Origin: a virus
Direction: 5' to 3' (one strand)
Virus record (IMG/VR): IMGVR_UViG_3300025647_000066
Coordinates: 1 to 44,250 of that record
Length of the DNA: 44,250 bases
In this document: one piece after another, positions 4,549-16,425 of the stretch
Layout of the letters: the number at the start of each line of letters is the position of its first letter
Numbering within the stretch: position 1 is the stretch's first letter
The notes under the pieces: model-generated
Told to the model about the DNA's origin: nothing
Databases searched by the model: none
What the model saw: only the letters and a program-made list of their open reading frames with translations
Translations under genes and position numbers: made by a program

Positions 4549-4556
4549 TCGCCCTG

Positions 4557-4698
4557 AAACGTCCTCAAATCCGTTTTGAGGACGTTTAAGCCTACAGCCG
4601 GTAAATTCTCTAATCTGGACTCCCTAAACGTCCTCAACTGGCGTTTCAGGACGTTTCAGGGGTATTAGGGACGCTCAGATACCTCTGAAACGTCCTGA
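4557..4698. repeat. Integrase arm-type site repeats
   Basis: Five copies of AAACGTCCTSA: direct at 4557-4567, inverted at 4577-4587, direct at 4626-4636, inverted at 4646-4656, direct at 4688-4698. Copies pair as inverted repeats with short spacers. The block sits between int and the attP core, where integrases of the lambda type have their arm sites. Some copies could bind an excisionase; none of the neighbouring small genes is a certain Xis. Confidence 0.65.
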
Positions 4699-4809
4699 AA
4701 GTGTCCCTGAGCCGGTTTTAGCGGCTAAACTGGGGGAAAATAGGGGTAGGGCGGCTGGACTGCTGAGATCGCCCCTGACGCGCCTTAAAAATCGGCTACC
4801 GTGACAGGC

Positions 4810-4929: not shown

Positions 4930-5115
4930 TTAGCTCTCCGTAGCTACGCTTGTAGCTACGGATATGGTGAGTAGATCGCGGCTACGCAGGTATTGTCCAC
5001 TTCGGAGCGTGGCGCGGCAATCCGCTTCCTGTCGCCACTTCTCTATCGTTTCGGCGGTAATGTCGGTGTCCGCGAAATAATAGGTGGCGTCATTGTAGCT
5101 GTCATACGACATCAT
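4930..5115 (-). CDS. Hypothetical 61-aa protein next to attP
   Basis: 61 aa, start at 5115 behind AGGAGAAGCC. Acidic N-terminal half, then TAETIEKWRQEADCRATLRSG, a short helical segment, and a tail with the direct duplication SVAT-SVAT made by two copies of GTAGCTAC. No domain recognised. As the first gene upstream of attP it could be a recombination directionality factor, but it lacks a visible winged-helix motif. Confidence 0.6.
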   Translation of the reverse strand: MMSYDSYNDATYYFADTDITAETIEKWRQEADCRATLRSGQYLRSRDLLTISVATSVATES

Positions 5116-5210
5116 TGGCTTCTCCTATTGGGTTGGGGTGGGTTGGGGCGGCGAGTTCGATACCGTGAGGGTATTGCTCCCTCGCTTTCTACTATCGCCA
5201 CCCCGAAACG

Positions 5211-5723
5211 CTATAGTCTTGCTTCGTTGAGTATGCCCATCATACTGACAGGTATAAAGGCATTCTCCCCGGACTTCGTTCCTCCATTGACGCAAGCCCT
5301 CGTCGCTGTGACTGCGCGCTTGATTGCGTGTTGAACGACAGGGTCACTTACTTTCCAATAGACGATCAGGTCAGAGCCAATCAGCTTGACGAACACGAAG
5401 AACGAACAGGACAGTAGGTTGGCCAGTTGCAGACCACCGGCTACTTTGTTGTGCGATATTAGGTAGGTGTCAAACGTAGCTCCTGTATTCGTATCGCGTA
5501 GGCGTCGACCAGCAGTTGATTGCTGTAGCTCCATCTCCCTCGCCTTCACCTCGGCGACTATCAGTTTATGCCTGTCGGCTTCAACCTTACCGAATACTGC
5601 ATCGACTACGCACTCGTCTGGTGTTTTCAATGCGCGTGTGCCGGTAGCGAAGGCTACGCGGCTTATGGCTTCGGCTTCGTGAGCGCGATAGGGCGCACCG
5701 GCTGGCGTGAGACTATCTAACAT
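5211..5723 (-). CDS. PD-(D/E)XK-like nuclease fold protein
   Basis: 170 aa with start at 5723, which overlaps the upstream stop; ORF extensions further upstream run through the neighbouring gene. E16, D41 in VVDAVF and E58-V-K60 in LIVAEVKARE give the E...D...ExK pattern of PD-(D/E)XK nucleases. A hydrophobic core strand (FFVFVKLIGSDLIVYWKV) follows. The family includes phage exonucleases, Holliday junction resolvases and restriction-type enzymes. In this operon with a Rad52-type protein a recombination or replication role is likely. The assignment rests on a short motif and is moderate. Confidence 0.6.
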   Translation of the reverse strand: MLDSLTPAGAPYRAHEAEAISRVAFATGTRALKTPDECVVDAVFGKVEADRHKLIVAEVKAREMELQQSTAGRRLRDTNTGATFDTYLISHNKVAGGLQLANLLSCSFFVFVKLIGSDLIVYWKVSDPVVQHAIKRAVTATRACVNGGTKSGENAFIPVSMMGILNEARL

Positions 5724-6006
5724 CGGCCACGCGCTCCTTTCTCTGCACCGTATAGCAGTAGATGCAGAAGCCGGAGCGTAGTGGCGCACCACCACACATC
5801 GGCGTAGCGCACTTGTTATGATAGCTACCGGCTTTGAAGCGGTATTCGGTGTCAGGCACATATCGCTTACCATCGGGCGATAGCCCCAACCGCTTACACT
5901 GATCGCGTAGCGTTGTTTTGGAGATGCCGAGCATGGATGCGGCGGCAGAGATTGAGCCAGCGCGTAATGCGGACTCTATGGCGTCTTTAGGAATCTTAAT
6001 ACTCAT
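5713..6006 (-). CDS. HTH and zinc-ribbon DNA-binding protein
   Basis: 97 aa. Residues about 8-45 (AIESALRAGSISAAASMLG followed by ISKTTLRDQCKRLGL) form a helix-turn-helix of the Fis/Psq type. The C-terminus holds a CxxxC/CxxC zinc knuckle (KCATPMCGG and FCIYCYT). It likely binds DNA as a small regulator. It overlaps the downstream nuclease-like gene by 11 bases. The spacer upstream of it is CCACCACCA followed by GGGAAAGGG. Confidence 0.65.
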   Translation of the reverse strand: MSIKIPKDAIESALRAGSISAAASMLGISKTTLRDQCKRLGLSPDGKRYVPDTEYRFKAGSYHNKCATPMCGGAPLRSGFCIYCYTVQRKERVADVR

Positions 6007-6032
6007 TCCCTTTCCCTCGTTGATGGTGGTGG

Positions 6033-6383
6033 TTATTTCCCTCGGAACATCTGGGGGAACTGAGATCGCATCTGAGTCATTGCTTTGGCGGCTACGGACT
6101 CAGAGGATTTTCCTTCGCGTAGTTCATCTAACGCTACCCAAAAGCAACAGGCTGAAGGTGCTGTTCGCTTATCGGCTTTGTGATAGGCGTAGCAAGCGAC
6201 GAGCATATCAACAGGGAATCCCTGTAGATTGCACCGCCACTCCCATATCAAATTTTTCCACGCCACCGTGTCGTGCGTGGGTGGATGCGTCCAGTTAGGA
6301 TAGTCGTGCTTTAGATCGCGCATGATATTCTGCACCGTGGCTACGCTCGGTGCATCTTCAAGCGTAGGTAGGACGTCACTCAT
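6033..6383 (-). CDS. Hypothetical replication-module protein, paralogue-like C-terminus
   Basis: 116 aa. Not recognised. The middle (TVAWKNLIWEWRCNLQGFPV) is rich in Trp, and the end (MRSQFPQMFRGK) matches the end of the upstream neighbour (LREQFPTMFR). The start overlaps the upstream stop by 8 bases. Its position next to a replisome-organiser-like gene suggests a helicase-loader or primosome accessory function, without direct proof. Confidence 0.6.
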   Translation of the reverse strand: MSDVLPTLEDAPSVATVQNIMRDLKHDYPNWTHPPTHDTVAWKNLIWEWRCNLQGFPVDMLVACYAYHKADKRTAPSACCFWVALDELREGKSSESVAAKAMTQMRSQFPQMFRGK

Positions 6384-6918
6384 CTTGCCCCTCGCCGGAA
6401 GTGCGGAACATTGTCGGGAACTGTTCGCGTAGCGTAGCCATGTGCTTACGAGCTTGCTCCGGCGTTGCGGCTTCCTTTTTCCACTGCCGATACATCTTCC
6501 GCTGTGCTACGCTATTGGTTTGCGTCTGCCGCGCTTCAACGATGCGGTCGATGTGTCCGGCAACCTGACCGATCTTTGGCCGGAAGGTGCAGACCGGCGA
6601 GCCGGTATTGGTCGGCGTGGTGTCGGCCATGTGCGCCACCACGCCCTCGGCAAATAGCCGCGCCGGATATTGCGCGGCAAACTCTGCCCATGTCAGGATG
6701 TCCTCTTTGGTCAACGGCCAATTATACTCAGCCGACAACCGGCGCATCACTTCATTGAATGAGCCACTGGTCTCCCCCAGTATAGCCTTCAATTGATTGG
6801 CTACCGCGGCTTTCCAACTGCTCTCGGCCTGATGTGCCGACGAGTTCGTCAAGTAGGTCGAATCCTTCGGCGATATTAGTTCGCCTATCGCGGTAGGCTG
6901 TCCGTTTTGGTTTCGCAT
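6376..6918 (-). CDS. Hypothetical replication-module protein
   Basis: 180 aa from ATG 6918, which has an AGGACAGGA ribosome site but overlaps the replisome-organiser gene by 167 bases. An internal ATG at 6747, directly after that gene's stop, would give 123 aa and no overlap. Contains a helical segment (TKEDILTWAEFAAQYPARL), a central region with VAGHIDRIVEARQTQ, and a C-terminal LREQFPTMFR motif shared with the downstream protein. No family assigned. Confidence 0.6.
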   Translation of the reverse strand: MRNQNGQPTAIGELISPKDSTYLTNSSAHQAESSWKAAVANQLKAILGETSGSFNEVMRRLSAEYNWPLTKEDILTWAEFAAQYPARLFAEGVVAHMADTTPTNTGSPVCTFRPKIGQVAGHIDRIVEARQTQTNSVAQRKMYRQWKKEAATPEQARKHMATLREQFPTMFRTSGEGQDE

Positions 6919-7639
6919 TAGATGTCCTGTCCTGTAAGGGTTCAAATGCCAATACATACTCGGCGGTAAGCTGTCCTGTGGATTTGATGGGGCGCGTCAA
7001 TCGAATAGGACCTGCTTTCCATATCCACGATAGGCCACCACCAGCATGAGCTTTCACCGTCATCACGATCTGACGTATCTGCTCTTTGCTGTAGTGTGGC
7101 GGCTTGTGGTGGAGATTGTGCAGTGCCATTTCTTGTGACGTCCAGTGAGGTGAGTTCGGTAGGTTGTCCCTGCCCCACAGTTCCATCATCTCTGCGGCGT
7201 AGTACTCGGGGTCGGCTGTCCATCCCTCGTCTCCATTATCATTGAAGGCGAGAGCGACATGCGAGGTGGAAGCATCCCAGTGGTGTTGCCACTTTTGCCA
7301 GTTCGTGATGTGGATTCGCGTTGCCTTCCCTCGTCCGGCTTGATAGTTGACCATGTTTTCAGAGGCCATCCATAGCAGAACGCTATTGAGCTTTCGGCGA
7401 GACACCTTCTTTGTGCCGCCACGCTCGTCCACATACCACGTTCCCTCGCGCACTTCAGGGTAGGTCACATCGCAAGCACCGATAGGCAACGCTCGGTGCT
7501 GAGCGTTGCCTCGGTGTGCCGCTTCCAATAGCAACCAAACCCATATACGGATATGCCACTCATCCTTGCGCCAGATAGGGTGGTCGGCTGTGCGCCTCCA
7601 CAGGAAGATGTAGCCTCCAGCATCGGGTTGATTAATCAT
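6752..7639 (-). CDS. Replisome-organiser-like DNA replication protein
   Basis: 295 aa. The first 115 residues (GGYIFLWRRTADHPIW, IRIWVWLLLEAAHRG, then SRRKLNSVLLWMASENMV and IHITNWQKWQ) follow the winged-helix N-terminal domain of phage replisome organisers and DnaD-like initiators, which bind origin DNA and recruit the helicase loader. The central and C-terminal parts (from about 120) are not recognised. Start at 7639 overlaps the ParB stop (TAATG). It is the best candidate for the protein acting at the iterons of the control region. Confidence 0.65.
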   Translation of the reverse strand: MINQPDAGGYIFLWRRTADHPIWRKDEWHIRIWVWLLLEAAHRGNAQHRALPIGACDVTYPEVREGTWYVDERGGTKKVSRRKLNSVLLWMASENMVNYQAGRGKATRIHITNWQKWQHHWDASTSHVALAFNDNGDEGWTADPEYYAAEMMELWGRDNLPNSPHWTSQEMALHNLHHKPPHYSKEQIRQIVMTVKAHAGGGLSWIWKAGPIRLTRPIKSTGQLTAEYVLAFEPLQDRTSNAKPKRTAYRDRRTNIAEGFDLLDELVGTSGREQLESRGSQSIEGYTGGDQWLIQ

Positions 7640-8421
7640 TACCCTGCCGCCTCCGCTTGCTTTGCGTTGACACTTCCGCGCAAAATAGCCGAGGCGTCGA
7701 CCAATAGCTTGCGTTGCTTGCCTGAAAACTTGAGACTGACCTGTTCCAGTTGGGCCGCCAGCATTCCATACTGCCCACCGGTAGGGACAACGACCTGTGG
7801 CATCTGCGACAGCATATCGTTCTTGTAGTGCCGCAGGGAAGCCTCTACGTCTTTGCCTCGGACTTGAGCGACACCTTCCTCGCCAGTGGCGGCTTTCACC
7901 AGAGCCGCTTGCCCTTCGGTCGGAAGGCGCAGTAGCCGTTTCGCTGTAGCTACCGTCATACCGCCCTTCCGCAAGGTTGCAAAGGCAGTGGGGTGCAGTG
8001 CCGTTTTCAGTTCGATCAGCTCGCGGATGATGCGTAGACCGAAGCCGGTCTCTTCGGCAATCTCCGTTTCCGTCTTACCTTCCGCGAGTAGCACCTCAAC
8101 CGCTTCGGCTTCGGTAGCGGCGTTGCGTTTCTGCACAAGATTCGATGCGAGTGTGGTAAGTGCGCGGTCGAGTGAGTTTTCGTAGCGCACCTCGGCGCGG
8201 ATGGTTTCCCATCCGAGTGCGTTGGCGGTAGCTACTCGCCGCTTGCCGTTGATGATCTTGTAGGCTACGCCTTCGGCGTCATTCGGCGTGACGATAATGC
8301 TGACGCGCTGGCCTATCTTCGTGAACGACCGAACCAGATCGTCATACGACTCTACTTCAGGAGCTTCAATATCAGCCAACGGGATGTTGGCGATGTGGAC
8401 TACAGGATTCTTGTCGGACAT
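7639..8421 (-). CDS. parB: ParB-family DNA-binding protein
   Basis: 260 aa from ATG 8421, five bases after GGAGA; earlier in-frame ATGs lie in or before a hairpin. N-terminal ParB/Srx domain (residues about 8-95) with the signature YKIINGKRRVATANALG, then a KorB/ParB-type helix-turn-helix (EAEAVEVLLAEGKTETEIAE followed by ETGFGLRIIRELIEL) and a helical C-terminus. No ParA is encoded, so plasmid-like partition is doubtful. Roles in replication control or gene regulation are open. The upstream spacer carries a 14-bp hairpin. Confidence 0.8.
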   Translation of the reverse strand: MSDKNPVVHIANIPLADIEAPEVESYDDLVRSFTKIGQRVSIIVTPNDAEGVAYKIINGKRRVATANALGWETIRAEVRYENSLDRALTTLASNLVQKRNAATEAEAVEVLLAEGKTETEIAEETGFGLRIIRELIELKTALHPTAFATLRKGGMTVATAKRLLRLPTEGQAALVKAATGEEGVAQVRGKDVEASLRHYKNDMLSQMPQVVVPTGGQYGMLAAQLEQVSLKFSGKQRKLLVDASAILRGSVNAKQAEAAG

Positions 8422-8439
8422 GATGGTCTCCATCGTAGT

Positions 8440-8475
8440 GAAGGGGTGCATAGCTTTGGCTCTATGCACCCCTTC
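8440..8475 (-). promoter_or_regulatory. Intergenic hairpin upstream of parB
   Basis: Perfect 14-bp stem (8440-8453 with 8462-8475) and loop AGCCAAAG on the minus strand, between a CCACCACCAC tract after the upstream stop and the GGAGACC ribosome site of parB. No T-run follows, so it is not a plain terminator. The same loop and neighbouring stem bases recur at 12444-12477. Confidence 0.7.
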
Positions 8476-8487
8476 GTGTGGTGGTGG

Positions 8488-9273
8488 TTATTCTGGCGTC
8501 ACTGCTGTGACATGAAGGTTGTCACCGAGCTTGTTGGCAACCTCGGTAGGCAAGGTTTCGTTGGTGCTGACGTATTCAAAGTGACTCCACGGCAGGGCGA
8601 GGAAGATGCCAGCCGCGAAATCGTCTTTACCGACACTGCCGCTCACCGGCTGATACACTTCATATTTAACGCTCGGCGTAGTGATGATAGCTGTGCCATT
8701 ATCCTCGTCCACTTCGACCGAGTGACTTGTTCCGCATGAAGTGAGCGCGGATAAATCCCATGTAGCGAAGGTGCATGGAAGCGCATCGGGGTCGCTGTCA
8801 GGGTTGAACAGCGGCTTGTGGTCGCATTGGAATGGCGATAGTGCGTCTGGGCGCGATATATCTGGCCGGACACTGCTGGGAACGCCAGCGGTTTCAGCGA
8901 GTTCATACGCTCTCATGGCAATCGCCTTCGGATGCACCAGCACTATCCGCGAACTGTGCGGCGTCAATGCACTGTAGTTATTGTCGCTACCGTTAATCGG
9001 TACGCGCTTGCTGAAGCCGTGCATTCTGCCTTCCTCCACGAAATCCGATGGGAAAGGGTAGTGTTCCGCGCCGACCCACATCACCATATCAGTGATGCCG
9101 TCCTCGCGCTGTACGAAGCGAACCCCACGGAACGCGCCTTCCGACCACGGAATTGCGTGGTCAACGATAAAGTTTTCAATCGGCTGACCGAAAGGCGAGG
9201 TGGGAACACAGGCATATAGCCCACCTTCCTTCCGCTTACCGCACCCTCTCATAATACTGCTGTTGACTAACAT
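8488..9273 (-). CDS. Hypothetical protein of the early operon
   Basis: 261 aa, start at 9273 behind GAGGAGACGAAG. A short Cys-rich N-terminus (RGCGKRKEGGLYACV) is followed by a domain rich in Trp, Pro and aromatic residues and an acidic C-terminal half. No catalytic motif or membrane span seen. It is the third gene upstream in the ParB/Rad52 block, so a DNA-metabolism role is conceivable. Family not recognised. Confidence 0.65.
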   Translation of the reverse strand: MLVNSSIMRGCGKRKEGGLYACVPTSPFGQPIENFIVDHAIPWSEGAFRGVRFVQREDGITDMVMWVGAEHYPFPSDFVEEGRMHGFSKRVPINGSDNNYSALTPHSSRIVLVHPKAIAMRAYELAETAGVPSSVRPDISRPDALSPFQCDHKPLFNPDSDPDALPCTFATWDLSALTSCGTSHSVEVDEDNGTAIITTPSVKYEVYQPVSGSVGKDDFAAGIFLALPWSHFEYVSTNETLPTEVANKLGDNLHVTAVTPE

Positions 9274-9293
9274 CTTCGTCTCCTCTACTGGTG

Positions 9294-9626
9294 TTAGGCG
9301 ACTTGCGCCTGTTGGTGGTGGACTACATCGGGCGGTAAAGGTGGCTTATAGATGTCATAGCCACCGTCCCGATATTGCTTCTCCCACGCCGAGGGTATGA
9401 CCGCTGGCATGGGATGGTCTTTTGAACGCCAGCCGGATAGCCCATGACAGGTAAGCCAGTTGGCAAACGCAACATGGATGCAAGTGGTTCGGACGGTATA
9501 GCCTTTACAGCCACATTGCCACATCCACGGTTCATATCCATATCGCTCTACGATATGCTTGCGACCAGTGCCGCACTTCTCTACCTCAAAGAACCAACTG
9601 GTCACTTCAAGAAGTAGGCCGGTCAT
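9294..9626 (-). CDS. SWIM zinc-finger protein
   Basis: 110 aa from ATG 9626, which overlaps the Rad52 stop. WQCGCKGYTVRTTCIHV has the CxC...CxH spacing of a SWIM zinc finger. SWIM domains bind DNA or proteins and in recombination complexes partner Rad51/Rad52-type proteins. Direct coupling to the Rad52-like gene supports such a partnership here, by inference. The rest of the protein is short and Pro-rich. Confidence 0.65.
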   Translation of the reverse strand: MTGLLLEVTSWFFEVEKCGTGRKHIVERYGYEPWMWQCGCKGYTVRTTCIHVAFANWLTCHGLSGWRSKDHPMPAVIPSAWEKQYRDGGYDIYKPPLPPDVVHHQQAQVA

Positions 9627-10245
9627 CGCTAATCGCCTTGAGTCGATCCAGTGCCGAGGTAAAGGCTTTCCAATCGCGCTGTGGCACTTCGTCTGGAGTT
9701 GATACGCCAAACTCAGCCATCGCGGCGTGAAGCACCTCCGAGGCGTAGCCTTTGCAGTATGATACGAACTGCTGTTGCCGCGCCTCGTCTACCACATTGC
9801 TCTGGCTCTTGTCGTATAGAGCAAGGCCGAAGCGGTTACCGAAGGTCATAAGCGCACGTTTCATCGCATCGCTCTCCGCTTCCTTCAAAGCCGACTCATG
9901 TGCCAGCCCTATATCAGCCATACCGTTGCCGTGTCCAGTGCCGCACCCTTCGCGGACGATCATTGCATCGCCGGAAAGGACAGTGATACGCACCTTCGCT
10001 AGATAGCTGACGTAGTGCTTGAAATACGCGCCATTGCGACCTTCCGCTTCTTCGCCGTGTTCGTGGATGCACTTGATCTCTATGGTCTCACGAAGCCAGT
10101 TGCCGAAGCCGAAGATTCGGTTGGCTTCGGCGATAGCGAACCACGCCTCTATGTAAGACAGGGTTTGCTTGCCCTGTGACCGTTGGGATACCGCGCTGGC
10201 CGGTAAGTCAGCGCGTAGCATGGCTTCAATATGTTCGGGAAACAT
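9607..10245 (-). CDS. Rad52/Rad22-type single-strand annealing protein
   Basis: 212 aa. The N-terminal 150 residues fit the Rad52/22 family: LSYIEAWFAIAEANRIFGFGNWL, a central beta region with YFKHYVSYLAKVRITV, and GCGTGHGNGMADIGLAHESA, followed by SDAMKRALMTFGNRFGLALY. Such proteins anneal complementary single strands and drive phage recombination. Start at 10245 behind ATAGGAGACGAGT. Next to it lies a SWIM protein gene; an SSB is encoded on the other arm. Confidence 0.85.
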   Translation of the reverse strand: MFPEHIEAMLRADLPASAVSQRSQGKQTLSYIEAWFAIAEANRIFGFGNWLRETIEIKCIHEHGEEAEGRNGAYFKHYVSYLAKVRITVLSGDAMIVREGCGTGHGNGMADIGLAHESALKEAESDAMKRALMTFGNRFGLALYDKSQSNVVDEARQQQFVSYCKGYASEVLHAAMAEFGVSTPDEVPQRDWKAFTSALDRLKAISDDRPTS

Positions 10246-10268
10246 ACTCGTCTCCTATGTGATGGTGG

Positions 10269-10385
10269 TTATGTTAGGATGAGAATGCACAGGGTAACGG
10301 TGGCTACGGCGATGATGATCGCGCCGTAGCGTTCCGTCCAGTGCGGCTTTGTGGCATCGTAAATGCTTTGGCGGCTACGAGCCAT
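10269..10385 (-). CDS. 38-aa single-span membrane protein
   Basis: A short gene with a near-ideal ribosome site (GGAGGTGATA) before ATG 10385. The product has a basic/polar N-terminus (MARSRQSIYDATKPHWTERY) and one C-terminal membrane span (GAIIIAVATVTLCILILT). Its stop is followed by CCACCATCAC and the ribosome site of the Rad52 gene, the usual spacer of this operon. Function unknown. Confidence 0.65.
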   Translation of the reverse strand: MARSRQSIYDATKPHWTERYGAIIIAVATVTLCILILT

Positions 10386-10603
10386 TATCACCTCCGTCTG
10401 TAGGGGAAGTGAAAAATGCTTGTATCGCAGGGGGGGATGTCGTAGGTTGTTGATACTGCGTCTCCTCGTTGAGATGTGGTGGTGGTGGGTGGGAGGGGAT
10501 TGCTTTGGCGGCTACGCCCCCCCCACCCTTTCAATTACAGCACAGCTTTGCGGTAAATCTCCGTAGGGTTGCGAGTAAGCACGATTCATGCCATATTCGT
10601 GGT
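10386..10603. other. Intergenic region between divergent genes
   Basis: 218 bases between the 38-aa gene (-) and the XRE gene (+). It holds GT/GC-skewed tracts, a minus-strand CCACCACCAC run followed by GAGGAGACGCAG without a start codon, and one of three exact copies of TGCTTTGGCGGCTACG (10501-10516). A weak plus-strand promoter is possible: TTGCGA at 10569-10574 and CATATT at 10592-10597, spacer 17. No gene seen. Confidence 0.4.
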
Positions 10604-10798
10604 ATGATAGGCAACGACATACGCGACTACCGCGTGAAACACCAGATCACGCAAAAAGACTTTGCGCTTCAGATCGGCGTTGCACCACTTACTGTGAGTC
10701 ATTGGGAGCGAGGTATCTCAACCCCGAAAGGACCAGCGAGGGTGCTGATCGACTACATCCTCCGAGGCAAAATTAAGATACGACGAACGCTCTCCTGA
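10604..10798 (+). CDS. XRE-family helix-turn-helix protein (repressor-like)
   Basis: 64 aa, little more than one Cro/CI-type helix-turn-helix: IRDYRVKHQITQKDFALQIG, then VAPLTVSHWERGISTP. It is the only plus-strand gene in the leftward early operon and ends 32 bases before a strong terminator, so it is an isolated transcription unit. No ribosome site precedes ATG 10604, and the possible promoter would place the transcript start at or next to the ATG, as for lambda cI from PRM. It is the best candidate for a lysogeny regulator, but its small size also fits a Cro-like or antitoxin-like protein. Confidence 0.75.
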   Translation: MIGNDIRDYRVKHQITQKDFALQIGVAPLTVSHWERGISTPKGPARVLIDYILRGKIKIRRTLS

Positions 10799-10829
10799 TA
10801 CTGTCGCAAGTGATGGGCGTGTTTGTCTA

Positions 10830-10871
10830 GCGATGGGTGAGAGCTACCAACTCTCACCCATCGCGCTTTTT
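10830..10871 (+). terminator. Intrinsic terminator of the XRE gene
   Basis: Perfect 14-bp stem (10830-10843 with 10851-10864), 7-base loop, then GC and five T. It ends the rightward XRE transcript and keeps it from running against the leftward operon. Confidence 0.85.
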
Positions 10872-10951
10872 AAAATATCCACACCGAAAAACTGAAGCAA
10901 GATAGTGTGCATATTTTTTTTCGTTCCGGCAAAAAAATACCGGCGACTTGT

Positions 10952-11320
10952 CTACGGATCGGTGGAGTTATCCGTATTCGGCACTGACGTGAATCCGACA
11001 CGCCTTCCACGCCGCGTATTGTCTCGGAGTTCGACCAGCTTATCCATATCCGAAGCACTGAGCCGGTAGCGTTCTGTGCGCCCATACCACGCCTCACGCT
11101 CGCCGAGGTCGTGCTCGCGGAGCTTCGCTGTCACCCATTGCGTAGACCGGCCTAACTTCTCAGCCGCTTCCGCTACCGTCATAGTCTCTCCGACAATAGC
11201 GTTTGCAATGGATAGGTATTCTGCCACGCCAATACCCAACGAACCCGCTTGCTCTTCGGCGGTGCGCCGTATCAATGCCTGTAGGCTTCGCCGCACCTTA
11301 TTTGTCTGAATCGGTGACAT
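10952..11320 (-). CDS. HTH DNA-binding protein
   Basis: 122 aa. MTVAEAAEKLGRSTQWVTAKL (about residues 47-67) is a helix-turn-helix of the type found in phage and excisionase-like regulators. RTERYRLSASDMDKLVELRD after it looks like the wing or specificity segment. The N-terminal helix may dimerise. It overlaps the upstream gene's stop by 23 bases. A regulatory role in the early operon is likely; the target is unknown. Confidence 0.7.
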   Translation of the reverse strand: MSPIQTNKVRRSLQALIRRTAEEQAGSLGIGVAEYLSIANAIVGETMTVAEAAEKLGRSTQWVTAKLREHDLGEREAWYGRTERYRLSASDMDKLVELRDNTRRGRRVGFTSVPNTDNSTDP

Positions 11321-12056
11321 TTCCGCGCTCCTTCTTTAGGAAGGACACGATAGCTCGTAGTTCGGTAACAGTCAAATCGAATATCTTACAGGACACCTTG
11401 CCATGTGAAACAGTGACCTCATTGTAGTAGCTATCCTCGCTCACCTTATAACTCATTCGGTGATCCATTTGTTTCTCCTCTTGCTTCGATGTGTCACCTA
11501 CAATCTGCGCGACCTCGGCTACCGCTTTCATGTGGCTGTGATAGCGTTTCCACTGATCCTCTGCCGCTCGGCGCACATAAGCACTCACCTTTGAATGCTC
11601 CGGCATGAATCGCCGCAGTATATCCTTCGCTACCTGATGGGGCGACTTGCTGATGGCAATGTTGATCGGGGAGGGTTCGTAGTATTCGTTGATATTGAAC
11701 GCACCCTGCGGAATCCACGGACGCAAGTCCTCGCGGCATGGACCGCGCTCGTAGAGGCCGCATACTCGCCACTTGCCTTCATACCCATTGCAGTTGGCCG
11801 CGATGTGGAGAGGATAGGGGAGGCTGGCGTCAACGAAGCCACCAGCCAGATATGGCTTGATGATGTGCGCTACCGGCGGTGCTTGGTCGGCTTGCTCTAC
11901 GACAGGATCCGTGCGAAACTCGTAGGATACAATGCTGGTCAGGTTCAGGCACTCGACAATCGTGTCGATCATGTCGGACTGTTCGCCGTAGCTCGCCCAA
12001 CGCTCGGCGATATAGGGGTTGCTGTGACGCAAGGCGTCATCGCGTATTAGGGTCAT
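11298..12056 (-). CDS. Hypothetical protein of the early operon
   Basis: 252 aa from ATG 12056, directly behind AAGGAGACCCGAA; upstream in-frame codons overlap the next gene. Mixed composition with a Cys pair (VCGLYERGPC) near residue 100 and a basic helical segment (YVRRAAEDQWKRYHSHMKAV) near 170. No family recognised and no catalytic motif seen. Confidence 0.65.
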   Translation of the reverse strand: MTLIRDDALRHSNPYIAERWASYGEQSDMIDTIVECLNLTSIVSYEFRTDPVVEQADQAPPVAHIIKPYLAGGFVDASLPYPLHIAANCNGYEGKWRVCGLYERGPCREDLRPWIPQGAFNINEYYEPSPINIAISKSPHQVAKDILRRFMPEHSKVSAYVRRAAEDQWKRYHSHMKAVAEVAQIVGDTSKQEEKQMDHRMSYKVSEDSYYNEVTVSHGKVSCKIFDLTVTELRAIVSFLKKERGNVTDSDK

Positions 12057-12076
12057 TTCGGGTCTCCTTGTGGTGG

Positions 12077-12421
12077 TTAAGGTAGAATGGGATCCATCGC
12101 ATCGGTGTAGCACGCATCGCACACGTTCATCTTTCGGCGGCTCTGGTGTTCGCGGAAGCATCCGTCACAGACGCGGAATGTGGTGGTGGCTTTGTAGTCA
12201 GCCACATCCATCTCGCTTGTCAGGTAGTCCTCATAAAATTCCTTTCGTGTGATGGCTGGAATCTGCTCCCAGCCTTCGTCCCAGTACAGCTTGTCAAAGG
12301 ATACCTTGTCAATCTTCGCTGGGGTGATGTGGTTGCAAGTGGCGCAGAGGCTTTGCAGTTTGCCGAGGCGGTAGACGGCGTTGGGGTCTCCGCAGATATT
12401 GCATCCGTATAGATCGCGCAT
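12077..12421 (-). CDS. Zinc-ribbon protein
   Basis: 114 aa with two paired zinc-binding knuckles: CNICG and CATC in the first 30 residues, CDGC and CDAC near the C-terminus. Such small treble-clef or ribbon proteins usually bind nucleic acids or polymerase. The central region (DKLYWDEGWEQIPAITRKEF) is helical. Start at 12421 behind GAAGGAGTATCGCT and preceded by the hairpin at 12444-12477. Confidence 0.65.
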   Translation of the reverse strand: MRDLYGCNICGDPNAVYRLGKLQSLCATCNHITPAKIDKVSFDKLYWDEGWEQIPAITRKEFYEDYLTSEMDVADYKATTTFRVCDGCFREHQSRRKMNVCDACYTDAMDPILP

Positions 12422-12443
12422 AGCGATACTCCTTCGTTGGTTG

Positions 12444-12477
12444 TGCTGGACGGTAGCTTTGGCTCTACCGCCCAGCA
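12444..12477 (-). promoter_or_regulatory. Intergenic hairpin upstream of the zinc-ribbon gene
   Basis: 13-bp stem (12444-12456 with 12465-12477; one G-T pair) and loop AGCCAAAG, identical to the loop at 8454-8461. A CCACCACCAC tract precedes it on the minus strand and the ribosome site follows. No T-run. Confidence 0.7.
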
Positions 12478-12533
12478 GTGTGGTGGTGGTTAGGTATTAA
12501 ACAGGCACTGCTCACATTGGCATCGCGTATGGC

Positions 12534-13004
12534 TTATTCATAACGCGGACGCTCCTTCGGGAAGTGGCTAGCCGGTTCGCGCTCTATGGTCACCCAATAC
12601 TGACCTTCGCACAGCACCGAGCCGAGATCAGAGTTCCGCTTGCCGTTGGCGTCATCAGCCCACGCCCACGCCTTATGGTAGGCGTCGATTAGCCGCACAA
12701 AGAATGCGCTGGCCGTTTCATCGGATAGCCGGTAAAACTCTTCGTCATTCTCGCCCACGCCGAAGTCATACCACCAGCCACCTTCTTCAGGACCTCCGTA
12801 TGCCCTGTCCAGCTTGTAGGTATTGATGTAGTAGGCATCCTCGGTCAAGTTTTCGCGGATTCGCCATAAGTGTTCTTGCATCGGCTCGGCACTGTACGGT
12901 AGCTGTAGCAGTTCGGGCGGTAGGTAGGTGTCGATCAGTTCAACGAGCGATAAGATTTGCCGCATACTCAGTTCGACCGTAGTGCTTCCGTTCACTGGTT
13001 TCAT
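12534..13004 (-). CDS. Hypothetical acidic protein
   Basis: 156 aa, acidic, rich in Trp and Tyr (GGWWYDFGVGENDEEFYRL, AYHKAWAWADD). Start 13004 overlaps the upstream stop. No motif or family recognised. The small acidic character resembles early phage proteins that act on host proteins, but that is only a general analogy. Confidence 0.65.
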   Translation of the reverse strand: MKPVNGSTTVELSMRQILSLVELIDTYLPPELLQLPYSAEPMQEHLWRIRENLTEDAYYINTYKLDRAYGGPEEGGWWYDFGVGENDEEFYRLSDETASAFFVRLIDAYHKAWAWADDANGKRNSDLGSVLCEGQYWVTIEREPASHFPKERPRYE

Positions 13005-13225
13005 TATTTCCTCGCTTCGTGGCGTGCCACCTTCGCATAGTGCAGTGCATAGGTCTGCATCGCGCTTATGATTTCGGACTCGGTGAAGTCATATTCGCGG
13101 CACGTATCAATCACATTTTCAAGGTGGACAAAGTAAGCACCCACCATCCCATCGTATTCGCCTTCGTCGCGTTGGTCAAAAGCGGCGGCGGCATTGGCAG
13201 TCGCTATGGAAGTCGGTGTATTCAT
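13004..13225 (-). CDS. Hypothetical 73-aa protein
   Basis: 73 aa from ATG 13225, eight bases after GGAGA; two upstream in-frame ATGs (13240, 13231) lie in or too close to that ribosome site. N-terminus rich in Ala, C-terminus helical (ESEIISAMQTYALHYAKVAR). Coupled to the next gene by a one-base stop/start overlap. No family recognised. Confidence 0.6.
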   Translation of the reverse strand: MNTPTSIATANAAAAFDQRDEGEYDGMVGAYFVHLENVIDTCREYDFTESEIISAMQTYALHYAKVARHEARK

Positions 13226-13246
13226 TGTCATGGTCTCCATTGGTAA

Positions 13247-13275
13247 ATCCCTGCTGGCAGAACGCCAGCAGGGAT
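13247..13275 (-). promoter_or_regulatory. Intergenic hairpin
   Basis: Perfect 12-bp stem (13247-13258 with 13264-13275) and 5-base loop, between the stop of the 373-aa gene with its ACACCAC tract and the GGAGACC ribosome site of the 73-aa gene. No T-run. Confidence 0.65.
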
Positions 13276-13297
13276 ATCGGTTGAAGGTGCGTGGTGT

Positions 13298-14419
13298 TTA
13301 GGTAGTAAGGCTGGCGGTGACCAGTGCGTAGCGCGGAACGAAAACATCGTGATCGCCAAAACGAACCTCATACATCAATACAGCGTTGCGGTATCTAGGA
13401 CCACTCAGCAACGTGCCGAATTGCCCCCTGAGATTCGATAGGACATCCGAGTCGTGGCGTAGGCGCACCGTTTCGCCTACGGACAAAACACTGAACTGCA
13501 CCGGCACTGTTTCGGTCTGTGGCGTGTCGGCTTGCGGTAATTCAGAGGACGCGGTGGCATCACCTTCCTCTCTCGGCGTAGAGCCGTCTTGCAGGATGCC
13601 AAGCATATCACTCCATCCCGGTTTGTGGGTGCCGTCTAAGTGGGCGTGGATAACATGCGGTTCAGGGAATTGCGTATTGAGCGTGTTCGCCGATTCCTCG
13701 TCCGGCTCTGCCTCGGCGGTATTGTCCGGCTCTGCCTCGGCGGTATTGTCCAGCAGTTTATCAGCCCACAGCGTAGCGGCTTCAAGTTTAGCCGCATACT
13801 CAGGGGAGAACGCATCGCCGAGCGAAGATTCAAGCGCACCGGCCAGCATACGCAGAGTTTTCAGGTGATCCATATCAATCGCACTGTCATTGGAATTGTT
13901 GGTGGCGACACCAGACAGGTCGACAGAGAGCCAGCCAGCATCATCATCTACCCACTCCATCGTGACGCCTTCCACTTTATCGCCGTTGGCGTGAACGATC
14001 GCCACATCCTCTGGCTTGAGGTGCTTGCTGAGTTCAAAAGAATTAATCTCAATGATCGGGTGCTCGTCGCCACAGCCCTGCCGGTCGTGCTGGAAGGTGA
14101 TTTCCTGTCCCAGCATCCGAACCTCAACATCAGTGATCCAATCGGACGGCGTAAAATCGACGGTCACTTCCACGCACTGATTGCCATAGCAGTCGCTTGT
14201 GTCAATTGTTCGGACGTTCAAGTCATCGCCATCGTCAGTGCGGATAGTGAATTCCCAATTCTCTACGTCTGGCTCATACTCGACGGTGACCTGCACTTCG
14301 TCGCCGTCAACCTCAACTTCGGTGACTTCCAGTTCATAACTATTCTGGTCGCGGACGATGATGTCAAAATCCTGTTCAACTTTCACTTCCTGTTCAATCT
14401 GAATCGTGGTATATGCCAT
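13298..14419 (-). CDS. Large acidic protein of the early operon, unknown function
   Basis: 373 aa, strongly acidic. The first 120 residues are beta-strand-like with alternating Val/Glu/Asp (QEVKVEQDFDIIVRDQ, TVEYEPDVENWEF). A linker with the octapeptide DNTAEAEP repeated twice spans residues about 225-240. The last 60 residues (VGETVRLRHDSDVLSNLRGQ) resemble a small barrel domain. No known family. Start at 14419 behind AGGAGACCATAATC. The repeat at DNA level is 24 bp. Confidence 0.65.
   Translation of the reverse strand: MAYTTIQIEQEVKVEQDFDIIVRDQNSYELEVTEVEVDGDEVQVTVEYEPDVENWEFTIRTDDGDDLNVRTIDTSDCYGNQCVEVTVDFTPSDWITDVEVRMLGQEITFQHDRQGCGDEHPIIEINSFELSKHLKPEDVAIVHANGDKVEGVTMEWVDDDAGWLSVDLSGVATNNSNDSAIDMDHLKTLRMLAGALESSLGDAFSPEYAAKLEAATLWADKLLDNTAEAEPDNTAEAEPDEESANTLNTQFPEPHVIHAHLDGTHKPGWSDMLGILQDGSTPREEGDATASSELPQADTPQTETVPVQFSVLSVGETVRLRHDSDVLSNLRGQFGTLLSGPRYRNAVLMYEVRFGDHDVFVPRYALVTASLTT
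13701..13748. repeat. Two exact tandem 24-bp repeats inside the 373-aa gene
   Basis: Copies at 13701-13724 and 13725-13748 are identical and encode the repeated acidic linker DNTAEAEP. The lack of any difference suggests a recent slippage duplication. Confidence 0.85.
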
Positions 14420-14443
14420 GATTATGGTCTCCTATGTAGTGAT

Positions 14444-14470
14444 GGGTAGAGTGCCGATTGCACTCTACCC
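14444..14470 (-). promoter_or_regulatory. Intergenic hairpin
   Basis: Perfect 11-bp stem (14444-14454 with 14460-14470) and 5-base loop, between a run of six CCA/CAC triplets after the upstream stop and the AGGAGACC ribosome site of the 373-aa gene. No T-run. Confidence 0.65.
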
Positions 14471-14501
14471 TCGTTGATACTGCGGTGGTGGTGGTGGTGG
14501 T

Positions 14502-14717
14502 TTAGCGGTGCGTGCGCTCGGCCACGCGCTGTGCGTAGTTGTCGAGTGCGTCTACTTTGCTTATGAAGTAGTTACCCCAATACAGGGAACCGTCGGCGGC
14601 TACAAAGTGAACGGCGTACTGGGTATAGATGCCATGAGGGATGGCACTTAACCGCACGCTGCGTTCCTCGTCAATGGTGCGCCAGTTGGGATTGTGGTGA
14701 GCTTGATGGCCTGTCAT
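14502..14717 (-). CDS. Hypothetical 71-aa protein
   Basis: 71 aa with a compact beta-rich middle (IYTQYAVHFVAADGSLYWGNYF) and a His-rich N-terminus. Start 14717 behind AAAGGAGCG. The stop is followed by the longest triplet tract of the operon. No family recognised. Confidence 0.6.
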   Translation of the reverse strand: MTGHQAHHNPNWRTIDEERSVRLSAIPHGIYTQYAVHFVAADGSLYWGNYFISKVDALDNYAQRVAERTHR

Positions 14718-14750
14718 TACGCGCTCCTTTCGCTTTGGTGTGTGGGTTGC

Positions 14751-15080
14751 TTAGAATTCGCAGTCGGGAACTGTGAACGTGGCAGTGTCGCGCATATACA
14801 GCGCATGACCTTGATAGTGGGCATCGTCGGCGGCGACCACGCGCCACCAGCCACGCGATGCGCCACTCCAGATATCGCGCTTGTCGAGTATGGTGTACTT
14901 ACTGCGGATGATAAAGGCGTAGGCACTACCCTGAATCACGACTCGGTAGTAGATGGCCGCGCTATTCTCGCCGATATCGTAAAAGTGGCAATGGTCGTTT
15001 TTTGCTTCACGCGCCACAGCGTTATGCGCTGTGGTGAACCTACGCAGGTCTTGCTTTTTTCTGTTGAGCTTAGTAGCCAT
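14751..15080 (-). CDS. Hypothetical 109-aa protein
   Basis: 109 aa with a basic N-terminus (MATKLNRKKQDLRRFTTAHN) and a beta-rich body ending in FTVPDCEF. Start 15080 with AAGGATACACCATC upstream. No family recognised; the basic head could bind nucleic acid. Confidence 0.6.
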   Translation of the reverse strand: MATKLNRKKQDLRRFTTAHNAVAREAKNDHCHFYDIGENSAAIYYRVVIQGSAYAFIIRSKYTILDKRDIWSGASRGWWRVVAADDAHYQGHALYMRDTATFTVPDCEF

Positions 15081-15105
15081 GATGGTGTATCCTTGAAAAT
15101 GTATT

Positions 15106-15131
15106 GCGGCGAGGGCGATCGCTCTCGCCGC
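15106..15131 (-). promoter_or_regulatory. Intergenic hairpin
   Basis: 11-bp stem (15106-15116 with 15121-15131; one G-T pair) with GATC loop, between a CACCACCACCACCAC tract and the ribosome site of the 109-aa gene. No T-run. Confidence 0.65.
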
Positions 15132-15149
15132 GTGGTGGTGGTGGTGTGA

Positions 15150-15431
15150 TTAGTAAATCTGCTCGAAACCGTTGTCGGACAGCGAAACATCCCAGTCGAT
15201 GGTGTCCGCGATAGCTCGACCATGTTTCTGGCTACGGACGGAGCGTTGCATGAAATAGTAGTGGCCGTCTTCCGCATCAATAGCCAGTCCTTGTCCGCAC
15301 ACGACCAGTACAGCTTTGCCTTCCAGCACTTCGGCGATAAGCGGCTCGCTATTGTCAGGGAACAGCGGCGTGTCGCACCAGCAATACCAATCGCTTTGCG
15401 TGAATTCGTTGAGTTCGATAGTGGTGGTCAT
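15150..15431 (-). CDS. Hypothetical protein, first gene of the leftward early operon
   Basis: 93 aa from ATG 15431, behind AAGGAGACCTATC; an upstream extension has no ribosome site. Compact, acidic, with two Cys in YCWCDTPLF. No family recognised. As promoter-proximal gene it would be expressed first after infection. Confidence 0.65.
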   Translation of the reverse strand: MTTTIELNEFTQSDWYCWCDTPLFPDNSEPLIAEVLEGKAVLVVCGQGLAIDAEDGHYYFMQRSVRSQKHGRAIADTIDWDVSLSDNGFEQIY

Positions 15432-15457
15432 GATAGGTCTCCTTGAAAGTGAAGTGA

Positions 15458-15490
15458 ACGCCGACTCTTCATCAGTATCAACATCGGCGT
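15458..15490 (-). promoter_or_regulatory. 5' leader hairpin of the leftward operon
   Basis: Seven-bp stem (15458-15464 with 15484-15490) with a 19-base loop, preceded on the minus strand by TAACCACC and followed by AAGGAGACC. It is the weakest of the leftward hairpins but has the same layout although no gene is upstream. Confidence 0.45.
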
Positions 15491-15545
15491 GGTGGTTATT
15501 TCCCTGTGATGACAGAGCACCGGTCTGGCGCACCAGCTTACGCAG

Positions 15546-15574
15546 TTGACAGCTGGCGGTTGGTGCTTTCTAAA
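15546..15574 (+). promoter_or_regulatory. Possible rightward promoter
   Basis: TTGACA (15546-15551), 17-base spacer and TCTAAA (15569-15574). The -10 box matches 4 of 6. It would make a short transcript ending at the possible terminator at 15790-15860. Between them no convincing gene is seen. Confidence 0.35.
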
Positions 15575-15789
15575 CAGTGGGATGTGACCGTGGTGTTATT
15601 ATGGTCGGGCGCGATCTCGTCGCGCTTATCGTGGCTTGTTTAGTGTCGGGATCGAAACCGACAATGACGGATGATGTTCGTGCTTTCGCGTTCGCCAAGG
15701 GACAGGCACGACCAACTTTCAACCTCGCTCCTGCGAGGCATCGGAACTGGCGTTCCGAACCGCCATAATAACCATCGGGTCGGGTGGGG

Positions 15790-15860
15790 GAGGCGAACAG
15801 CGAAGCTTCCCTTTACCTGCCTCCCTCGCCGTCTCCGCTGTTGCCCTCGTCGTTTTTTTT
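15790..15860 (+). terminator. Possible rightward terminator
   Basis: Stem GAGG/CCTC plus AACAGCG/CGCTGTT with a small internal loop and a large loop of about 33 bases, then GTCG and eight T (15853-15860). The T-run is good but the loop is long, so confidence is limited. Confidence 0.4.
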
Positions 15861-16161
15861 AGGGCTATTCAGGATGAACGGTTTCGATTGCCAGTTCACG
15901 GGGTCGATTCTATTACTTTCGCCACCTTATTCATCGCCGGAGTTTTACTGGGAGCGACCCAGCTACTCTTCCGACTCGCAAAACGAATGGATCATTAGGC
16001 GGCACTCGCGCCAGCCCTGTGACTTCCACTCGGTTCGCTTATTCGATTTTCAAAGATCAATCAACTGCACCCCAATTATAGCCGTCTTAGAAAAGTTTAA
16101 CAAGCCCAAACTCTACCTTCGCCCTATAAAGTATCTGCTCGCGTTCATTATATATAAGGGG
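15861..16161. other. Control region, left part
   Basis: About 300 bases without a supported gene. Open frames here have no ribosome site and odd composition. The stretch contains the leftward promoter at 16075-16103 and AT-rich blocks (TATATATAA at 16149-16157). Confidence 0.45.
16075..16103 (-). promoter_or_regulatory. Candidate early leftward promoter
   Basis: On the minus strand TTGTTA (16098-16103), 17-base spacer and a perfect TATAAT (16075-16080). It points toward the early operon whose first gene starts at 15431, giving a leader of about 640 bases. A second TATAAT at 16147-16152 lacks a -35 box. Confidence 0.5.
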
Positions 16162-16293
16162 AGCGGTTAAAGTGTAAGTAGCTACAAAAACAATGGATTA
16201 TGTGGGGTTTTGGACGTCGAGCGGTAAACCCTGTGGTTAAAGTGTAAGTAGCTACAAAATCAGCTACTTAGGTGCGTTTTTGGACTACGAGCG
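16162..16293. repeat. Two tandem units of about 70 bp in the control region
   Basis: Each unit runs GGTTAAAGTGTAAGTAGC with TACAAAA behind it, about 20-25 variable bases, TTTTGGAC (16208-16215 and 16278-16285), two bases and CGAGCGGT. GTAGCTAC inside is palindromic, and related AGCTACTTA half-sites follow at 16262 and 16337. These look like operator or iteron arrays at the switch between the two arms. Confidence 0.7.
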
Positions 16294-16425
16294 GTTAATC
16301 TGTGATCAATGTTGTTTCCCTAAGTTATTCTCTTGCAGCTACTTACGATTTCTAATAATGTTAATAAAAGTAAGTATATAAAGCGGAGCTAAGTAGTTGA
16401 ATTGCTCCGCTTTGCGGAAAAAGCG

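Follow-up and report, generated by a model that had tools for sequence, protein, structure and literature searches.

Many genes in a leftward operon of the virus record IMGVR_UViG_3300025647_000066, which was analysed over its whole stretch of 44,250 bases (the window), are preceded by a short cassette: a C/A-rich tract with the core CACCAC, in part of the cases a hairpin, and a Shine-Dalgarno (SD) sequence. Judged from sequence comparison, this cassette is probably a modular translation-initiation leader for early (non-structural) genes, with the CA tract as an enhancer or ribosome standby site. A role in translation had been suggested in a first-pass annotation of this DNA. It is supported by related phages, where the tract keeps a constant spacing to the SD and is restricted to early genes.

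The window encodes an integrase, a terminase, a portal protein, a major head protein and a tape measure protein, and its leftward operon codes for Rad52, a DnaD-like loader and a ParB-like protein. These genes mark it as a temperate tailed phage, and its early genes lie on the minus strand. The genes of the leftward operon are referred to as gA to gS, in transcription order. Gene starts in the window are predicted.

The CA tract in the early operon

The pattern TAA-N(0-8)-CCACCA/CACCAC occurs 10 times on the minus strand of positions 5001-16000, compared to a mean of 0.58 and a maximum of 4 in dinucleotide shuffles. The opposite strand of this region has one copy, and the late-gene plus strand (26.5 kb) has none. 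GGAGACC is found seven times, with 0.76 expected. For counts by gene in the window, an upstream limit of 90 nt was used, as a limit of 60 nt misses the leaders with a hairpin.

The tracts and their associated hairpins are listed in Table 1. All nine tract positions given in the first-pass annotation (6033, 8488, 10269, 12077, 12480, 13298, 14502, 15150 and 15495) are present in the sequence, the one at 13298 being a single CACCAC. The junction had been described as a stop codon TAA, the tract, and GGAGACC ahead of the start, and this holds in part. Exact GGAGACC is seen at about half of the sites, ahead of the tract-bearing starts at 15431, 14419, 13225, 12056 and 8421, whereas the starts at 10245 and 9273 have GGAGACG, and those at 15080, 12421 and 6006 have a different SD. 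The tract follows a stop codon TAA at many junctions, but the TAA before 15495 and that before 12489 do not end a predicted gene. The tract at 10488 has no TAA and no start codon after it; this orphan is a cassette remnant. The cassette is absent from the overlapping or abutting pairs gE-gF, gH-gI, gK-gL, gN-gO, gO-gP, gP-gQ and gR-gS; at overlapping pairs no leader exists that could hold a tract.

Table 1. Tracts and hairpins of the leader cassette in the window, in transcription order
Position	Strand	Feature
15487..15497	-	CA tract ACCACCACGCC after TAA (not a gene stop), upstream of the first operon gene (start 15431)
15457..15485	-	Hairpin in the tract-SD gap of gene 15150-15431
15132..15149	-	CA tract TCACACCACCACCACCAC after the stop of 15150-15431
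15106..15131	-	GC hairpin GCGGCGAG...CTCGCCGC, no T-run, then AAGGATACACCATCATG
14736..14750	-	Degenerate CA tract GCAACCCACACACCA ahead of AAAGGAGCGCGTAATG
14484..14501	-	Longest CA tract, ACCACCACCACCACCACC, after the stop of 14502-14717
14444..14470	-	Hairpin, 11 bp stem, loop AATCG; then GGAGACC (14426-14432) and ATG 14419
13291..13297	-	Weak CA tract ACACCAC after the stop of 13298-14419
13247..13275	-	Hairpin, 13 bp stem; then GGAGACC (13232-13238) and start 13225
12478..12489	-	CA tract CCACCACCACAC; no gene ends at the TAA ahead
12444..12477	-	Hairpin, 13 bp stem, loop AGCCAAAG; then AAGGAGTATCGCTATG (start 12421)
12061..12076	-	Cassette without hairpin, CCACCACAAGGAGACC, ahead of ATG 12056
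10476..10488	-	Orphan tract CCACCACCACCAC; hairpin upstream (10487-10528), GAGGAGACG downstream, no start codon
10259..10268	-	CA tract CCACCATCAC ahead of AGGAGACG and the rad52 start 10245
9288..9293	-	Degenerate tract CACCAG ahead of GAGGAGACG and start 9273
8476..8487	-	CA tract CCACCACCACAC after the stop of 8488-9273
8440..8475	-	Hairpin, 14 bp stem, loop AGCCAAAG; then GGAGACC (8425-8431) and ATG 8421 (ParB-like)
6022..6032	-	CA tract CCACCACCATC ahead of GAGGGAAAGGGA and ATG 6006

Conservation in related phages

With the whole operon as query, a near-identity search of the phage collection gave no match. A search with Rad52 gave phages with a similar early region. Four relatives, P1 (L013), P2 (L044), P3 (L045) and P4 (L049), belong to the same group according to terminase, Rad52 and other late proteins. 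Their terminases are 69-72% identical to that of the window in three of the four cases, and Rad52 is 42-50% identical. Because P2 and P3 hardly differ in their early genes, the four records count as three independent lineages.

CACCAC precedes the SD of 8/16 early genes but of 0/35 late genes in one relative; the corresponding values for the other three are 10/19 and 0/12, 13/28 and 0/18, and 14/27 and 1/39 (Fisher p from 0.004 to 3e-6), all counts being approximate as gene starts in the relatives were taken from a simple custom caller. In the lineages of P2 to P4, no permutation of CACCAC reaches the count of CACCAC itself. In P1 the only one that matches it is CCACAC, which overlaps the same CACCACAC string. 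A lack of conservation in relatives had been named beforehand as an outcome that would speak against the suggested role; instead, the relatives keep the tract, on early genes only and with a constant spacing to the SD. GC content is 41-43% in P1 to P4 and 53% in the window, and amino acid identities are 42-72%, so that the tract is not unselected residual similarity.

The comparison can also be made gene by gene. The rad52 leader carries the tract in all five phages (the window and P1 to P4). For gN, it is found in the window and in P1. In the gM leader, the window has the degenerate CACCAG where P1 has CACCAC, and the gO leader has no tract in either. In the window, gL is located between rad52 and gM; it is absent from P1, and the tract stays with gM. 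Other loci that were fetched by similarity of terminase or Rad52 have no comparable signal.

Position of the tract and leader architecture

The tracts of P1 to P4 end 2-11 nt ahead of GGAG and, in the great majority of leaders, begin at about -21 to -28. This spacing is the same whether the tract is preceded by a stop codon (TAAACACCACACC...GGAG), by a hairpin or real terminator, or by a promoter. The promoter cases are repeated blocks. In P4, repeats of 86-94 nt consist of an A-rich stretch, CTTGACA, 17 nt and TATATT, followed by AAACACACCAC and ACAGGAGAAACAAAATG. P3 has six repeats of 112 nt with the same promoter-leader plan, and P1 has five of 86 nt with TTTACA-17-TATCTT. The tract is thus tied to the gene that follows it, as part of its leader, and not to the stop codon. 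The earlier description of stop codon and tract as a unit was misleading, as in relatives the tract also comes after promoters. In the window, 12 promoter-like sites were counted, with 8.6 expected.

The tract is predicted to be less structured than its surroundings. Its predicted unpairedness is 0.70 in the window (leader mean 0.48) and 0.66-0.84 in the relatives (leader means 0.51-0.60).

Hairpins between tract and SD

Six hairpins had been reported before (at 8440, 12444, 13247, 14444, 15106 and 15458); all are present, and none has a T-run. There are 18 perfect stems of 10 bp or more, compared to 5.0 in shuffles. A comparison with Rfam gave no match above the gathering score and only two subthreshold matches at chance level.

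In each of the six window leaders where tract and SD are more than 12 nt apart (38-52 nt), a hairpin fills the gap. Once the hairpins are taken out, the distance in these six becomes 10-24 nt; in the five leaders without a hairpin, it is 1-8 nt. Overall, wide gaps between tract and SD nearly always contain a hairpin. The order of stop, tract, hairpin and SD recurs at 14572 in P2, with an effective gap of 7 nt, and an imperfect hairpin of the same kind lies between tract and SD in the leader at 38247 of P4. For these reasons, we regard the hairpins as inserts that are tolerated between tract and SD. They may act as RNase barriers, as insulation between cistrons, or in shaping the platform on which the ribosome lands.

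The window stems (8-14 bp) are unrelated in sequence. An 8-nt loop, AGCCAAAG, is common to the hairpins at 8440-8475 and 12444-12477, and an 18-nt loop, CGTAGCCGCCAAAGCAAT, to those at 10487-10528 and 6071-6104, the latter inside coding sequence; in both pairs the stems are unrelated. A constant loop on a variable stem hints at an RNA or DNA hairpin recognised by a protein.

Proposed mechanism

Directly seen are the position of the tract, its strand and gene-class specificity, its conservation, its occurrence after promoters and stops, and its predicted unpairedness. The core of the proposed leader would be a C/A-rich tract that is short, unstructured and free of G and lies 1-11 nt ahead of a GGAG-type SD. 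Where a hairpin intervenes, its folding out would bring a distant tract near the SD. The tract would serve as a standby site or enhancer on which the 30S subunit (mRNA platform and S1) lands before it slides to the SD. Each non-overlapping early cistron could thus initiate strongly and independently of the cistron upstream. The hairpin would be tolerated by the platform and probably protects or insulates the flanking mRNA.

Precedents exist for both parts. Initiation in Salmonella is stimulated up to 100-fold by ACA motifs that lie in CA-rich tracts ahead of the SD; the spacing is not strict, and the CA element of gltI works 45 nt upstream of the start (PMC3879156). A standby module, as measured and modelled, consists of distal single-stranded RNA, a hairpin, proximal single-stranded RNA and the SD, and a sliding platform can push hairpins aside (PMC3936740). 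By the published standby formula, six window leaders have a surface area As of 17-43.5.

Several points weigh against this assignment. Several early genes have a normal SD and no tract. The starts of the leader genes are predictions. The enhancer precedents are enterobacterial, and the host of this phage may be of another kind. The early-only distribution exceeds what a generic enhancer strictly needs. Finally, the closest relative by late genes, P5 (L095; records L180/L181), with a major head protein 83% identical to that of the window, has no CACCAC in the sequenced early part.

The few early leaders that P5 has contain ACCGAGGAGA instead, in many cases behind a GC hairpin, which is the same architecture with another sequence.

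CACCAC leaders in rhizobial phages

A search of viral contigs for exact TAACCACCACCAC-N(0-30)-GGAGACC gave 5 matches, with about 3 expected by chance according to our own estimate. For so large a collection this is about chance level, so the matches alone prove nothing. Three of the five matched records, however, have 16-29 strand-biased CACCAC-GGAG sites each. The records found by the motif have no related terminase, and two have DNA matches to Rhizobium and Sinorhizobium phages. As they were chosen by the motif, they give no estimate of its frequency among phages. In the annotated Rhizobium phage RHph_X2_25, which is an isolate, CACCAC lies within 70 nt of 13 of the 18 early starts with an intergenic gap, compared to 1 of 13 late starts. 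This parallel occurrence may be due to convergence on a good leader free of G, to a reader that the lineages share, or to horizontal spread.

In the RHph_X2_25 record (L182, positions 5374-31254), the CACCAC leader stands ahead of GAGGAGAC on most intergenic early starts and on one late start.

Alternative explanations

The tract could be a translational operator, where CACCAC in all early leaders is bound by a phage protein (like T4 RegA) or a phage or host small RNA (like GcvB), which would turn early translation on or off as a regulon. We consider this unlikely, although five phages, as well as an unrelated rhizobial phage, have the tract confined to early genes, and CA-rich enhancers are known targets of small RNAs (PMC3879156). 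The recurrence of loop AGCCAAAG on two unrelated stems is also what a protein site might show; a related loop motif, CGCCAAAGCAAT, was looked for in the related phages and not found. The complementary GTGGTG was not found between genes in early-sense RNA, except for one copy each in two genomes. A family search of the operon proteins revealed no candidate RNA-binding protein, and most of them have no family match. It is tempting to speculate that CACCAC leaders form an early-gene translational regulon in unrelated lineages, that of the window and the rhizobial phages, with a dedicated phage or host RNA-binding protein or small RNA as the reader that separates early from late translation; the chances of this are likewise low.

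It is improbable that the repeated blocks of leader, hairpin and promoter provide homology for gene shuffling, as in the T4-type promoter-stem-loop cassettes (PeSLs), possibly aided by the phage Rad52 annealase. Promoter-leader repeats of 86-112 nt with nearby hairpins in the relatives, the orphan cassette without a gene at 10488, and the absence from P1 of gL, which in the window separates rad52 from gM, would agree with shuffling. In the window, however, the conserved core spans 7-18 nt and the stems are unrelated, which makes for poor homology, and the tight spacing between tract and SD, together with conservation at the orthologous rad52 and gN starts, points to a constraint on expression.

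Alternatively, the hairpins might be the functional part, as RNase barriers or as terminators or attenuators between cistrons, with the tract as mere unstructured spacing. Strong hairpins do exceed shuffles, and certain hairpins in the relatives are real terminators with T-runs. Yet no window hairpin has a T-run, most tracts in the relatives and about half of those in the window have no hairpin, and the AT-rich genomes keep the sequence of the tract beyond a lack of structure. We thus give this explanation very little credence.

A DNA-level element, with GGTGGTGGTGG on the template strand as a two-tier G-quadruplex or a transcription factor site, is hardly credible: the longest window tracts would permit such a quadruplex on the plus strand, but the position of the tract follows the SD and not promoters. 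The quadruplex was rejected because the relatives retain only CACACCAC, which is unable to form one. Read-through into polyproline after TAA was rejected because many leaders in the relatives have no upstream gene stop.

Other features of the window

(i) A small Xre-type repressor-like open reading frame is encoded on the plus strand at 10588-10776, in a 566-nt gap of the leftward operon and beside the orphan cassette. It is probably the lysogeny switch.

(ii) The gene at 13298-14419 contains a perfect 24-nt in-frame tandem duplication (13700-13747), which corresponds to an acidic AEAEPDNT repeat.

(iii) Imperfect repeats AAACGTCCT...AGGACGTTT are clustered next to the integrase (4552-4721); these are likely att sites or sites for an excision protein. 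A pair of direct repeats of 64 nt (81%) with GTAGCTAC is found upstream of the rightward genes (16165-16298) and may be regulator sites.

(iv) As a lead to the host, the nearest bacterial locus by terminase (60%) was considered (L058, a metagenome-assembled genome labelled Gemmatimonadetes). It was rejected: the locus has no cassette, and the pattern density of the genome is not phage-like (105 compared to 74 for the control in 3.7 Mb).

Comparison with known systems

A full-text literature search, which has partial coverage, found no report that pairs CACCAC with phage translation or a ribosome binding site. The closest likenesses are as follows.

The C/A-rich enhancers of Salmonella yifK, dppA and gltI share with the phage leaders a G-poor, CA-rich, unstructured tract just upstream of the SD with spacing that is not strict (PMC3879156). 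They differ in that they belong to single host genes silenced by GcvB, whereas in the phage the CACCAC core is repeated over an early operon, often with a hairpin, and the enhancer role is putative. Standby modules have distal single strand, hairpin, proximal single strand and SD in exactly the order seen in the window (PMC3936740); they are a general biophysical model with synthetic leaders, while the phage has a conserved natural sequence.

The repeated blocks of promoter and hairpin between early genes of P2 to P4 resemble the PeSLs of T4-type phages (Arbiol 2010 and Comeau 2014, as cited in PMC4503421). In contrast, the window has no recognisable promoters at most junctions, and a role of the blocks in shuffling would be hypothetical. 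To our knowledge, the CA leader is not a part of PeSLs.

The first-pass annotation had drawn an analogy to the start-associated sequences (SAS) of cluster K mycobacteriophages, and this is apt for the position near the start and the restriction to non-structural genes. In cluster K, the repeated element also stands at non-structural gene starts, about half with an inverted repeat upstream (extended SAS, ESAS; PMC3203893). The analogy fails at the sequence level: the 13-bp SAS GGGATAGGAGCCC is absent from the window at up to 2 mismatches (6 copies at 3 mismatches, with 9.4 expected), and the phage stems do not share a sequence. The ESAS are paired 17-bp inverted repeats with a shared consensus and were judged unlikely to be RNA hairpins (PMC3203893). 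Compared to these, each window stem has its own sequence but is perfectly paired, and the cassette contains a CA tract in addition.

Translation signals beyond the SD are poorly catalogued in phages. Here, a CA-rich leader is kept on early genes despite proteins at 42-72% identity and a shift in base composition of about 12 points. If it works as proposed, it would be a compact part for gene expression provided by nature, and possibly a point of control that separates early from late translation. It also offers a testable, better-bounded counterpart to the still unexplained start-associated sequences of cluster K.

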